This document shows positions 4,426 through 54,539 of a stretch of 64,000 nucleotides of DNA, piece after piece. This stretch comes from Paludibacteraceae bacterium (lineage in GTDB: Bacteria > Bacteroidota > Bacteroidia > Bacteroidales > Paludibacteraceae). Position 1 is the stretch's first letter, and every line of letters starts with the position of its first letter. The position numbers were made by a program, and so were the translations under genes. The stretch is taken from the NCBI GenBank assembly GCA_905233375.1, contig CAJOEJ010000011.1, positions 1-64,000 on the forward strand. Direction: 5' to 3'. The notes below the pieces were generated by a model. The model did not search any database, was not told the origin of the DNA, and was given only the letters and a program-made list of their open reading frames with translations.

Positions 4426-4523
4426 ATGTTGGCATGGTTTTTGTTATTAATATTATGATTCTTTATGATGTCTGCCAATTTGGCAGTTCTTATGCTTTTC
4501 TTGGCTTGTCGTATAGGCAATAT

Positions 4524-4572
4524 CCCCGTTATCACCCGGTAATCACTCCGTAATAACCCCGTAATCACCCCC
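4524..4572. repeat. Tandem array with 11-bp period (4 units)
   Basis: CCCCGTTATCA|CCCGGTAATCA|CTCCGTAATAA|CCCCGTAATCA|CCCCC. Confidence 0.85.
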
Positions 4573-14066: not shown

Positions 14067-14104
14067 AATGAGAGATTTTTGTTTAAAATGGCTCAAAAAG
14101 GATA

Positions 14105-14133
14105 AAAAAAGGGTGAGGCGTGTGCCCCACCCT
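14105..14133 (-). terminator. Repeated terminator hairpin (copy 2)
   Basis: (-) GGGTGGGGCACACGCCTCACCCTTTTTTT. Confidence 0.8.
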
Positions 14134-14134
14134 G

Positions 14135-14560
14135 ATAATTACCGACATCGCTCGACAGCCACCATTTGTTCCAACCGAAGATAGCCGACTCGAAATCGGA
14201 AGCCACGGCGATGAGGATGTTGATAGCCACGATGATGAACGGGAAGGGTTTGAACCAGCGTTTGGCACCGATACCCCACTCGTACTTGATCATCATGAAA
14301 CCGATACATCCGGTCAGCGCAGCGTACAGTTTGGCATAGTGGAACCAACCGTTCATGTACACATGGGTCTGGTTGTTCACTGCCCATTCGGCTCCCATAC
14401 GCGCTCCGACAGCGATCGCTATGAAATAGACGGTCAGGGCTAACGGGATAGCGAAGAACGTGATGGCACCGCCGAGTTTGGTACGACGTGCAAACTCATT
14501 CCAAAGAATCAAACCAGCCAGGACAACAAGCAACATTGCCCACTGGATGAGAGCGTGCGG
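14135..14560 (-). pseudogene. DUF5692-like membrane protein remnant, truncated at both ends
   Basis: IQWAMLLVVLAGLILWNEFARRTKLGGAITFF...FGWNKWWLSS then runs into a terminator hairpin; ORF N-terminus is encoded by the 11-bp repeat array. Confidence 0.6.
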
Positions 14561-14570
14561 GAAATACCCC

Positions 14571-14643
14571 GGACAAGGTCGAGACCTGATCCGACCCAAA
14601 GATTGCCCAACGATCCCCCAAGGATTGCCCAAGGATGAGACCC
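14571..14643. repeat. 11-bp-period array (about 6 units), copy A
   Basis: GGTCGAGACCT|GATCCGACCCA|AAGATTGCCCA|ACGATCCCCCA|AGGATTGCCCA|AGGATGAGACC; near-identical inverse copy at 39582-39650. Confidence 0.9.
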
Positions 14644-14704
14644 AAAAATCAACAACAATGAACTTATACTATATATATACTATGTATATATATACTTTTT
14701 ATTG

Positions 14705-14760: not shown

Positions 14761-17166
14761 CTACGCAAACATCCGGGAAAGATGGTCGGTAACAAGCTTT
14801 GCTCTAAAAGAAATCAGTTCCTTACACAATTGCTCGATGTTCTTTTCCATTGAAAGTAACGGATCATGTGTGTATATGGGTTCTTTTCGGACATAATGCT
14901 TGTCCTTCGTGAGTCTGAATAATTCACTTATATGCTCATCGGGCTGCATCTCCTGCTTATCATAATTCCTTTTTCCTACCGATACGTACCACTTGCTCTC
15001 TCCATCCTGCTGCCATTCAAAGATGACATCCATAAAATAGTTGGTTCTTGGGTTTTCGGGTACATCCGTTCCCTTTTCATTATATTCCTCTATTTCGTTA
15101 TCGGCATTAAGCACAAACGGGATGACGGTGGTTTGATAATTCCAGTTCCATGCGCAAAGGTGCTCCTGCTTCAACCGTTTTTTCAACAGTATGTTTTCCA
15201 CATGCCACGATTTGCGTTCACCAGCCTGCACGGAGTCCAGCAATATGATACGCGGAGAGATATTACTCTCCTCCCACAGATACTTAAAGGAACCTTTAAA
15301 CAGATCTATGTGTTCCAAGAAAGGTACCATCCACTTATCTGGTTCACCTTCAGGTGTTTGCCCTGTCAGGAATGGTTTCAAATGCGATTCTATAAATGTG
15401 TCTTTGCTGAGTATTTCACGCCAATCGTCATCATTCGATATAAAATTAAATCTGCGCAGCCATTTGTTGGTCAGGTTCCCAGAACCGCCTTCCGATTCGA
15501 CAGGGAATGCGCCGTATCGGAGCAGTTTCTGTCTTAATTCACGAGTATCTTTGTTCGTCAGAATCTCCGTTACAAACGCCCCTAAATACGTTGCAAAATC
15601 ATCCGGAGTTTCAGACATCTTCAGAAGGCACTTGCAGTTGCCCTGCAAAAATTTCTCAAGCAGGTCATTCTGTACGAACTTCGCCAGCTGGCTTTCCCAT
15701 TCCTGCCTTTGGGGCGTATTCAAAAGCATTTCAGCAACTTCTTTGTCGATATCGGCAAACACATTTTTGAATTTCTCTGTCGGCGTTTCAAATACATCTC
15801 CGCTTTCCGGAATGGCGTTTACCATTGTCAGCATTAAATACACTGCCCTGTCCGGCGCCTTGTAATGGGTGTCATTATAACTCTTGTTTTTCAGGAAATA
15901 CGCCAGCCGCTTGAGATAAACAGGTTCCTTCTCTGGAAAACGCATGAGGTAACGAAGGATTGGCAGCAATACGACATATTCAATCGTTGTTTTCTCCCGG
16001 GAAAGCCATAAGTCATCTACGAAGAATTCTTTTACGGTCAACGAACTCAGTTGGTATACAGCCTGCATTACTTGCTCCAACCAAACGGCGTTAAACGATT
16101 GGTTTTCTTTGATATACGAGCGGATGTCACGATATTGCTGCGTAGATTTGTCACTCTCCGGCGACTCCACACGAATATAATCTTCGATGATTTCCACCTC
16201 CGATTGTTTTCTGTCATTCACCATCTTAGGTGCTTTTTTGACCGTGTCGCCATGAGAACATATATGCAGTATTACCGCCCATTTCAGAAAGTTCTGGAAT
16301 CCTTTATCTGCATTGGGATTCTCTTGTCCTTTGTTTTGCCAGAAAAAGTCCTGCCATTCCTCCCATTTCCTTCCGTAGTCCAATTTTTGGTCGCCTTTGC
16401 CGATGATGATGGACTTGATTGTTTCCTGATAGGACAAATTCTCCCCGCGGCTGTTCATATAGAGATACAACCGCTCACCCTGCGCGCTGATATTGGTGTC
16501 AAAGAAATTAAATTCCACAAAGTGCTCCAGATATTCCGTAAACGACGGGATGTCATGGACGGTTTGCACAAAATCACAAATAATGTGGTAGTTATGCCAC
16601 ATGTTTTTTGTGGTTTCGTCTTTATCATAAATCACCTTATAGTAATTGACACTATTATCAAAGGAGATGTTTTGATGTGATAATTCGTGCTTTATCAATT
16701 GGATCAAGAAGTCGTGGGTTATTTCCCGGACACGATAATCCAGTTTCGGCAACTGCTGCGCAAAATAGCGTTCCTTAAATTCAAACCACCTATCGGGTTG
16801 TTCTTTGTAAAGCGCGATAAGCAGCAAATACAACGTAGTAATACGTTGTTGACCGTCTATTAAAAAGAATTTGCCGGGATAATTGGGGTCGTGATAGGCA
16901 TAGATGAAGCCTATTTTGGTACTATACACTAGTTTCTCATATTCCTTGGAGAGGTATGCATTCATGCTGCCAGATAGCGGTGCATTACCGGCATTAATGG
17001 TCAGGGTTACATTCTCCTTGGCATCGTATTTGTTTTTGATGGACTCCAACAAACCACGGACATTCTGCTCTTCCCAAACATAGTCACGCTGTATCTCCGG
17101 AATAATAATCTGCTCTATTTCCGGATTGTTCAATAATTGAAACAAACTATATCTTCCTGTTTTCAT
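14761..17166 (-). CDS. DUF262 domain protein (GmrSD-like, no obvious HNH)
   Basis: IIIPEIQRDYVWEEQNVRGLLESI; FFLIDGQQRITTLYLLL; LYLYMNSRGENLSYQETIKSI. Confidence 0.85.
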   Translation of the reverse strand: MKTGRYSLFQLLNNPEIEQIIIPEIQRDYVWEEQNVRGLLESIKNKYDAKENVTLTINAGNAPLSGSMNAYLSKEYEKLVYSTKIGFIYAYHDPNYPGKFFLIDGQQRITTLYLLLIALYKEQPDRWFEFKERYFAQQLPKLDYRVREITHDFLIQLIKHELSHQNISFDNSVNYYKVIYDKDETTKNMWHNYHIICDFVQTVHDIPSFTEYLEHFVEFNFFDTNISAQGERLYLYMNSRGENLSYQETIKSIIIGKGDQKLDYGRKWEEWQDFFWQNKGQENPNADKGFQNFLKWAVILHICSHGDTVKKAPKMVNDRKQSEVEIIEDYIRVESPESDKSTQQYRDIRSYIKENQSFNAVWLEQVMQAVYQLSSLTVKEFFVDDLWLSREKTTIEYVVLLPILRYLMRFPEKEPVYLKRLAYFLKNKSYNDTHYKAPDRAVYLMLTMVNAIPESGDVFETPTEKFKNVFADIDKEVAEMLLNTPQRQEWESQLAKFVQNDLLEKFLQGNCKCLLKMSETPDDFATYLGAFVTEILTNKDTRELRQKLLRYGAFPVESEGGSGNLTNKWLRRFNFISNDDDWREILSKDTFIESHLKPFLTGQTPEGEPDKWMVPFLEHIDLFKGSFKYLWEESNISPRIILLDSVQAGERKSWHVENILLKKRLKQEHLCAWNWNYQTTVIPFVLNADNEIEEYNEKGTDVPENPRTNYFMDVIFEWQQDGESKWYVSVGKRNYDKQEMQPDEHISELFRLTKDKHYVRKEPIYTHDPLLSMEKNIEQLCKELISFRAKLVTDHLSRMFA

Positions 17167-17168
17167 GG

Positions 17169-19022
17169 TTATGCCAAATGTTTTTTCAGTTGTTCAATAA
17201 TCTCTTTGTTTCGTTGTCTCATCCATTGTTCATGAACGCCAATATCGTTTATGTCCCATCTGAACAGATCCGGAGTGAACCCTTTTTCCCCTTTCATATC
17301 CAATGATTTTTCATACAACGCGATTGTGTGATACGGCACGAAACTTCCTTTATTTCGCCGGGAGATGATAATGTTCCGTTTAACGATAAACGGGTTATTG
17401 CTGACAGCACTATTGTCTCCGCCGCCCAATAGTGCCATATTGCCCATTATGTGCTTCTTCTCGTCTATCTCGGAGTCGTACAGGAACGGGAGGTCATCCA
17501 CCGATATCGCCTCGCCATTGAGAAGTTTGGTTTCAATTTCCGTTCTTTTGCTTTGTTCTAATGACTCCGGCAGTTTTCCCAGCACATAGGATACCAGATT
17601 GTGAGGAATTTTGATGTCTCCTTTCGGGTTTTGCGGCGACAAATGCTCCAGCGTCCAATTCTCATGATCATACTGGTAAAAATCAAATTTCTCTTCCTGT
17701 TCCAGGAACACATTAAAGGACAACAACAAGTTTGTCAGTTTGCCAGAATTTTCCTTATAGCCATATTCTATTTGGGAATGCTCCAAGTCCGGAATAATCT
17801 CCAATACCCTTTTCGCCAGTTTCTTTTTTACCACGGCTCTGTCTTCCCATATAACCTCATCGGTCCAAGAGATATTGTATTGCTGCGATTTCGCAAAACG
17901 GACATATCCGAACAAGTTGTAGAAATCAATGTCTCCGTACCATATGTTATACAATGCCCGATACGCATGTTTGATCAGATTCAGCACATCGAACGCCGTT
18001 TTCTCATCGCGGATGATGCGGTTGAATTTATTGAAAAGTTCATACATCGACGGCTGAACATTCCGGCTTTGCGTGTCAAATGACTGACGATATTGCCGAA
18101 GAAGCGAATCTTCAATTTCACCGGAGGAGGTTTCTGCGCCTTCTATTTTCCGGAGTACCACTTCGAGCAGTTTTTCGATGCCGTCTGGATTCTCTTTCTT
18201 TTTTGTTGCGAAAAAGAAATGGGCTATTTCCGGCTGGGAAATCCATGCATTGATTTCATCCCATACCCGCCCCATGACCGTGCGTTGATCCAATATCTCC
18301 TTGTAAGACAAGGTGCGATTAAATGAAGTCGTCCGATTAACCGCTTTGGTCAGCAATAAGCCCTTTATCAGATACTGGTTGGTAAGAGGTACTTTGTTAT
18401 TATTCAGATTCTCAAAGACTTCCTCTGAATTGGTATTCTCATCCTCTATGTTGAAAATCAATTTGACGGAGTCCAACAAGTAATTGTAATAGGCTTCTAA
18501 TTTGCCTTTCTCCTCATCTTCCTCTAATAACTGCAGGAATTTATCTATCGTACGAACCGCTTTCACCATATAGTACTGATCCTGATGGCTGATTTTTTCA
18601 TCCTCATCTTCGGAATCAGGAATCTGCAGAGATGCGAATATATCTCCCTCATAGCGGAAATATTTAAGGCGGTTACGGCTGATATTCTCCAAATGGGAAT
18701 CCTTCTTTGCTATTCGTGAAAGCAACAAGGAAAGCGTTGTGAGGCGCTGCTGACCATCAATGACCTCAAGCACCTCGCTCTTGTCTTCCAATTTTAACTT
18801 TTTTACAGTGATGTATTGCAAAAAATACTCCGTAGTACCATACACAAATGCTTCGTATATATCTATAAGCATTTGAGGGACTTGGGCATAGGAAGAATTC
18901 GACTCCCACTTATAGCCCCGCTGGTAAGGAGCTATGTAGTAGAAAGACGCTTTATTGTCCGTTAAAGCTCCTTTAGCTCCCGCATTAAAAATCTGTTTGA
19001 TGGAATAAACAAGTTCGCTCAT
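17169..19022 (-). CDS. DUF262 + DUF1524 (HNH) protein (GmrSD-like)
   Basis: PYQRGYKWES; VIDGQQRLTTLSLLL; VFENLNNNKVPLT; LEHLSPQNP; HIMGNMALLGGGDNSAVSNNPFIVKR. Confidence 0.87.
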   Translation of the reverse strand: MSELVYSIKQIFNAGAKGALTDNKASFYYIAPYQRGYKWESNSSYAQVPQMLIDIYEAFVYGTTEYFLQYITVKKLKLEDKSEVLEVIDGQQRLTTLSLLLSRIAKKDSHLENISRNRLKYFRYEGDIFASLQIPDSEDEDEKISHQDQYYMVKAVRTIDKFLQLLEEDEEKGKLEAYYNYLLDSVKLIFNIEDENTNSEEVFENLNNNKVPLTNQYLIKGLLLTKAVNRTTSFNRTLSYKEILDQRTVMGRVWDEINAWISQPEIAHFFFATKKKENPDGIEKLLEVVLRKIEGAETSSGEIEDSLLRQYRQSFDTQSRNVQPSMYELFNKFNRIIRDEKTAFDVLNLIKHAYRALYNIWYGDIDFYNLFGYVRFAKSQQYNISWTDEVIWEDRAVVKKKLAKRVLEIIPDLEHSQIEYGYKENSGKLTNLLLSFNVFLEQEEKFDFYQYDHENWTLEHLSPQNPKGDIKIPHNLVSYVLGKLPESLEQSKRTEIETKLLNGEAISVDDLPFLYDSEIDEKKHIMGNMALLGGGDNSAVSNNPFIVKRNIIISRRNKGSFVPYHTIALYEKSLDMKGEKGFTPDLFRWDINDIGVHEQWMRQRNKEIIEQLKKHLA

Positions 19023-30718: not shown

Positions 30719-30795
30719 ACATTTCCGCGACTTCATCGAGACATTCTCGAGCCGTTTACGGGACAGAGACAAGACAGACTCGAGACCGAGACGAG
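30719..30795. repeat. 11-bp-period array (7 units), copy C
   Basis: ACATTTCCGCG|ACTTCATCGAG|ACATTCTCGAG|CCGTTTACGGG|ACAGAGACAAG|ACAGACTCGAG|ACCGAGACGAG. Confidence 0.9.
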
Positions 30796-30876
30796 ATAAT
30801 ACCGTATCCCACCAACCCCTTTATATACATAGTATATAATCCGTGATTTTGGATAGCTTACATTCCTTTAAGCACA

Positions 30877-39397: not shown

Positions 39398-39581
39398 TTT
39401 TAACGAAAAAAATCAAAAAAAATGCATTTTGGCATCCAAATGTTAAAATGAGCGTTATAGAAGGTCTGTTTGCGACGTCACAAAGTTACGTTATCATGGC
39501 TTTTAAACGGCTCCAGAGACACAAAAAAGTATATATACTAAAGTATATATAGTATTTGTGCGCTATGTACATTTTTTGTGA

Positions 39582-39650
39582 TCCATCCTTGGGCAATCCT
39601 TGGGGGATCGTTGGGCGATCCTTTGGTCGGATCTGGTCTCGAGCTTATCC
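39582..39650. repeat. 11-bp-period array, inverted copy of 14571-14643
   Basis: Reverse complement AAGCTCGAGACCAGATCCGACCAAAGGATCGCCCAACGATCCCCCAAGGATTGCCCAAGGATGG. Confidence 0.9.
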
Positions 39651-44431: not shown

Positions 44432-44442
44432 CCGATTTGAAA

Positions 44443-44497
44443 ACCGAGGAAGGATTTGACTGCTTGCAACCTCGTTAAAATAATGCTAAAAACTTGT
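44443..44497 (+). ncRNA. SAM-II-like riboswitch upstream of metK
   Basis: CGAGG aa GGATTTGACTGCTTGCAA CCTCG TTAAAATAATGCTAAAAACTTG: P1 pairing CGAGG/CCTCG (44445-44449 / 44470-44474), GATTTRAC...TTGCAA loop and GCTAAAAA 3' segment resemble the SAM-II consensus. Confidence 0.75.
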
Positions 44498-44498
44498 A

Positions 44499-44534
44499 CC
44501 ACAAGCTAAAACAGTCGCTTGTGGCGTTTTTTTT
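44499..44534 (+). terminator. Intrinsic terminator between the SAM-II-like aptamer and metK
   Basis: CCACAAGC-taaaacagtc-GCTTGTGGCGTTTTTTTT. Confidence 0.85.
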
Positions 44535-54473: not shown

Positions 54474-54539
54474 ACATTTCCGCGACTTTATCGAGACATT
54501 CACGAGAAATTTACGAGAAATTCACGAGACATTCCTTTG
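54474..54539. repeat. 11-bp-period array (6 units), copy D
   Basis: ACATTTCCGCG|ACTTTATCGAG|ACATTCACGAG|AAATTTACGAG|AAATTCACGAG|ACATTCCTTTG. Confidence 0.9.

Follow-up and report, generated by a model that had tools for sequence, protein, structure and literature searches.

The ParR/parC centromere of plasmid R1 is composed of 11-bp direct-repeat arrays bound by a multimer, and is present as one plasmid locus with the par operon. CarH binds as a tetramer to three or four 11-bp direct repeats in tandem on one DNA face, and its operators, with the motif nnnnTnnACAn, are located at carotenoid promoters (PMC9304148). Among dispersed repeats, the REP sequences carry a GTAG or CGTC tag (PMC3733652), and the BrickBuilt MITE of Porphyromonas gingivalis consists of 23-nt units in variable number, with a leader and a tail that have insertion-sequence-related terminal inverted repeats (PMC4596501). 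Most intergenic repeats of gut Bacteroidales have no annotation.

The window, which is the whole stretch of 64,000 nucleotides analysed here, belongs to a 2.23-Mb draft assembly (83.6% complete) of a Paludibacteraceae bacterium and carries an array-gap-palindrome composite at 14560-14700 as well as an inverted copy of identical order at 39650-39524, both read directly in the sequence (Table 1). The first-pass annotation had proposed a composite at 14571-14700 with an inverted copy at 39528-39650, and whole-genome BLAST, which recovered the second copy (39524-39650) with E = 4e-24, assigned the two to one family; the observation was real and understated. The element is non-coding, has a size of about 110 bases and follows a plan of four 11-bp units (NCC-NN-A-N-GAT-N; consensus across copies NCCNNANGATN), then an A/T palindrome about 4 x 11 bp away. 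The left end of copy 1 is common to copies L001, L003 and L004 and is found with one change in L006, while the dyad of the inverted copy is located 43 bp from its array end.

Table 1. Features of the two composite copies, the adjoining gene remnant and the second-family element in the window.
Feature	Position	Strand	Description
Membrane-protein gene remnant	14096..14557	-	Orthologs about 361-390 aa
Copy 1, distal part	14558..14593	+	Left end CGGGAAATACCC, then 11-bp-phased units of other sequence, ACAAGGTCGAG ACCTGATCCG
Copy 1, proximal array	14594..14637	+	Exactly four 11-bp units: ACCCAAAGATT GCCCAACGATC CCCCAAGGATT GCCCAAGGATG
Copy 1, gap	14638..14669	+	32 bp, A/T-rich, near-fixed length
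Copy 1, A/T palindrome	14670..14694	+	TATATATATAC-TAT-GTATATATATA, then CTTTTT; arms 14670-14680 and 14684-14694
Second-family array	30719..30796	+	11-bp-phased, CGAGACGAGAC-like units
Second-family conserved core	30797..30848	-	Palindrome TTATATAC-ATA-GTATATAA, read on the minus strand
Inverted copy, palindrome	39530..39551	-	TATATATAC-TTTA-GTATATATA; 4-base loop
Inverted copy, proximal array	39584..39627	-	BLAST and core match

The palindrome pattern TATATACNNNGTATATA, with at most two mismatches, was expected 0.07 times in the 64 kb and was found twice (14674 and 30822). The latter match falls in the element at 30719-30839, the array of which (30719-30795) had been listed as a third array. 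This element proved to be a member of a second family, which has a similar order (array, then palindrome) with another core (AAAATCACGGGATATATACNNNGTATATAWRGGTNNGGTGGGATACG) and other units, and which is present in 39 of 101 genomes of the genus. Its palindrome, at about 30821-30839, is a shorter version of the class-1 palindrome. As well, 11-bp arrays of unrelated sequence and without a palindrome are present at 4517-4571 and 54480-54534, the second of which continues into a 7-bp array (TTGTACC-type). Intergenic repeat periods in the genus cluster at 11/22 and 7/14/21.

Further copies, the absence of which would have told against a composite unit, are present in the same assembly, where whole-genome BLAST detected 12 class-1 copies, one of them just beyond the window. 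A 26-bp array core occurs 12 times in this genome (10 exact, 2 with one mismatch), and no additional occurrence was found there with up to three mismatches. Six of the copies form a young sub-family sharing about 140 bp, distal units included. A sequence model built from 51 copies (R1) matches 99 of 178 genomes of the genus, with copy numbers per genome reaching at least 17, and gave no match in 150 other genera of the order, an absence which, like every other reported here, is weakened by MAG incompleteness. The composite is genus-specific. The exact palindrome pattern is found in 97 stretches from a collection of 85,462 species; the 80 matches listed all belong to records of Bacteroidales or Bacteroidia, several labelled Paludibacteraceae and many originating in the rumen or gut. 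A phage origin was rejected, as the pattern is absent from 2.9 million viral contigs. A known RNA family was rejected as well, the sole match in the window at gathering threshold being a SAM-II riboswitch (44440-44499, 65 bits).

Array and palindrome go together, which removes the second objection foreseen by the first-pass annotation. Among 107 palindromes with a T-run, most of them chosen by the palindrome alone, at least three array units are located upstream in 101 and four in 93, and all 12 arrays of the own genome are part of a composite. The conserved order suggested by the first-pass annotation is strict: in 122 of 124 non-redundant copies, 43-45.5 bp separate the array end from the dyad axis, in a search that permitted about 19 bp of play. 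The gap sequence drifts while its length is kept, and array and dyad stay about 4 x 11 bp apart, in agreement with the earlier idea of units on one DNA face. Within the unit, CC, A6 and A9 are near-invariant in 39 species. The dyad of the palindrome is kept over 51 aligned copies, and three copies show an A-T to G-C change on both palindrome sides with the symmetry retained. The loop triplets occur in both orientations (TAT 33, ATA 31; TAC 13, GTA 5), and both can be present in the same genome, as though the centre of the palindrome could invert.

The best explanation of these comparisons of sequence, to which we give an even chance, is that the composite is a dispersed docking site for a putative oligomeric DNA-binding protein, and that copying accounts in part for its spread and its uniformity. 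Such a protein would bind the four head-to-tail 11-bp units on one helix face, in a complex that would include or face the A/T palindrome four turns away, and the palindrome might itself be a further site with dyad symmetry, or a place prone to melting or extrusion. New sites would arise through copying of the whole element. One MerR-type protein was tested as a candidate and proved to be encoded by nearly all genomes of the genus, including those that lack the element. In the own assembly there is only one MerR_1 match, in a 114-aa frame; CarH itself was rejected, as no such protein was seen beside this single near-universal MerR_1 gene.

The elements are mostly located upstream of genes, above all between divergent genes, and therefore the element probably acts on promoters or local supercoiling, not on a single pathway. 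In 20-kb regions, 31 of 57 elements lie between divergent genes, although such regions make up 22% of the intergenic length available (p = 1.6e-7). Of 123 loci, 90 have a gene start on the palindrome side, orthologous loci being included more than once in this count and in that of the left neighbours. When a gene instead ends on this side, its stop is often no more than about 45 bp away, a distance that is approximate because genes were called by a simple ORF script. The 12 copies of the own genome are, as far as examined, intergenic or abut a gene remnant, and no common function was found among their flanking genes. A regulon was accordingly rejected, the neighbours looking unrelated: ribosomal protein L13 (from Pfam) and, read by eye, TonB-dependent-type, CdsA-like, CCA-adding-enzyme-like and Mfd-like genes. 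In many species the element is found 11-13 bp ahead of the ATG of an ElaA-like gene, which encodes a GNAT acetyltransferase (L006:1650-2480 and orthologs) whose N-terminal region has no Pfam match. A weak correlation links the orientation of the element to the GC-skew strand (L284-L343): of 44 ortholog-deduplicated loci, 32 show a negative strand-balanced skew on the element strand (p = 0.004) and 29 a negative skew at third codon positions (p = 0.05), which may point to replication direction and is suggestive only.

The comparison of 124 copies from 39 species, with 13 ortholog groups (the two largest of 15 and 8 copies) and 144 ortholog pairs, showed that the loci are inherited vertically and the array is set genome-wide. 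The downstream flanks of orthologs were 0.335 apart, whereas non-orthologous pairs from the same two species reached 0.503 (p = 3e-23); for the array, the distances were 0.243 and 0.255, respectively, a small yet detectable difference (p = 2e-5); these p-values are optimistic, because the pairs are non-independent and two ortholog groups supply most of them. Between copies of one genome the arrays are nearly uniform (0.093). The gap distances (0.379 orthologous, 0.441 non-orthologous, 0.355 within a genome) carry both a locus and a genome signal. Within-genome uniformity is highest in units 3-4, falls off abruptly at the gap and fades slowly leftward. The genome-specific signal is carried by unit positions 4-5, which agree at 0.75 and 0.87 across units and loci of one genome versus 0.53 and 0.57 between species; the main 4-5 dinucleotide of a genome is found in 83% of its units, compared with 64% after shuffling (maximum 69%). 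Positions 7, 10 and 11 carry little genome-specific signal, and position 11 is rather uniform across loci at equal unit index, which requires block copying in addition to protein specificity. For a docking site, the uniformity would reflect a protein specificity at positions 4-5 that drifts by lineage, together with array blocks copied between loci by gene conversion or re-dispersal. Against the part assigned to protein specificity, much of the uniformity could be due to nothing more than recent copying. Its old sites and per-genome array make the element a clean natural system for studying how dispersed sites evolve in concert, and how the specificity of a DNA-binding protein is coupled to many loci at once.

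The main rival is a BrickBuilt-like MITE, that is, a non-autonomous mobile element with an internal minisatellite and without host function, spread by a transposase, the uniformity of which would result from recent bursts. This is possible, and we hold it to be doubtful. The element is short, intergenic, multi-copy and non-coding, and its 12 copies, intergenic as far as examined, with a young sub-family of six, are what such an element would leave. Empty sites, which the first-pass annotation proposed to look for in related strains, were found and show gain or loss of the element. At an operon site, the genes of L071 and L300 overlap (TAATG) without an element, while eight other loci carry the element with very different distal arrays; at another site, L078 carries the element, whereas L117 and L305 have a short tandem repeat in its place. 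The contact with a gene remnant also favours mobility: copy 1 adjoins the 5' end of the remnant at 14557/14558, and in comparison with orthologs, which begin MFFQVYGEHALIQWA, homology stops at HALIQWA, where the left end of the element starts. However, the C-terminal part of the remnant is also lost and the missing 5' part is absent from the other side of the element, indicating that this is not a simple insertion. Next to the element and the remnant, at 14761-19022, lie two neighbouring genes that carry restriction domains of the GmrSD type (PF03235 in both, PF07510 in one), possibly a defence island.

Several observations argue against a purely mobile origin. Terminal inverted repeats are lacking, the ends of four young copies matching at 4-6 of 21 bases, and no target duplication was seen by eye between filled and empty sites, where the left border is blurred by the variable distal units. 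A search for mobilisers covered two families, of which the Y1 transposase is absent from the own assembly (no PF01797 match) and present in only 20 of 178 genus genomes, and the reverse transcriptase is absent from the own assembly and present in only 34 of 178; retro-copying was rejected on the latter ground, as most carriers also have no reverse transcriptase. Moreover, there are old sites, with up to 15 copies from different species, at which the flanks are conserved and only the arrays change, and the strict phase lock is likewise at odds with a mere mobile repeat. Of the earlier suggestion of a mobile or functional unit, the functional part gains support, whereas a plain mobile element, given shared sites and no terminal inverted repeats, does not. 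The docking-site and mobile-repeat readings can both be true in part.

It is rather unlikely, in our opinion, that a genome-wide system brings the arrays of old fixed sites to a single genome-specific sequence by active rewriting, whether through co-evolution with a binding protein that changes fast or through a dedicated array-copying process with polarity from the array/gap border. Should the first of these routes hold, it would offer a parallel in bacteria to docking sites that evolve rapidly.

A transcription terminator or leader attenuator, formed by a hairpin and T-run after the array, is considered quite unlikely. The palindrome flanks read ATAC...CTTTTT, with CTTTTT after the palindrome in most copies, a small number of gaps look like strong terminator hairpins (L101 and L123), and in several species the element lies by eye between a promoter-like TACCTTTG and the ATG of the ElaA-like gene. 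Nevertheless, the consensus folds into an A/T-only hairpin of about -5 kcal/mol, the left neighbour gene points away from the element in 60 and towards it in 63 of 123 loci, and the 31 of 57 elements between divergent genes do not take a position 3' of a transcription unit.

Template-driven rewriting, in which arrays at old sites are overwritten by a copying enzyme or by a nucleic acid acting in trans, is very unlikely. The sharp edge of uniformity at the array/gap border with gradual distal decay, and an array that tracks the genome and not the locus, would agree with it, but ordinary gene conversion confined by the non-homologous gap would give the same edge, reverse transcriptases were not found in the own assembly or in near-complete carriers (e.g., G097, G034, G197), and the own genome holds no array copy without a palindrome. 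A small regulatory RNA with four repeats, followed by a hairpin and T-run, is scarcely credible, as no conserved promoter was found upstream of the array, the consensus fold shows no array structure and helical spacing is a DNA-level constraint.

For the docking-site reading, the element provides a defined DNA probe for a probably unknown architectural or regulatory protein of this rumen/gut genus. In comparison with ParR/parC, the element is present in many chromosomal copies. Like the REP/BIME palindromes mobilised by RAYT (PMC3733652), it is a short intergenic palindromic repeat in many copies; no GTAG or CGTC tag was found at its palindrome end, and REP/RAYT was rejected, since the own assembly (83.6% complete) has no Y1 (RAYT-type) transposase. 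It resembles BrickBuilt (PMC4596501) in the order of bacteria, intergenic location, internal tandem repeat, restricted host range and about 10-20 copies per genome, and differs in its 11-bp units, four of them proximal, in a palindrome on one side only and in being phase-locked. Unlike the CarH operators, it has the consensus NCCNNANGATN, which lacks the nnnnTnnACAn motif, occurs at about a dozen unrelated loci and carries an A/T palindrome four turns away; membership in the CarH operator family is not claimed because the motif differs. By analogy with tetrameric CarH on four 11-bp repeats, invariant contacts, genome-specific positions, a four-unit array and a phase-locked dyad fit a docking site for an oligomeric protein.
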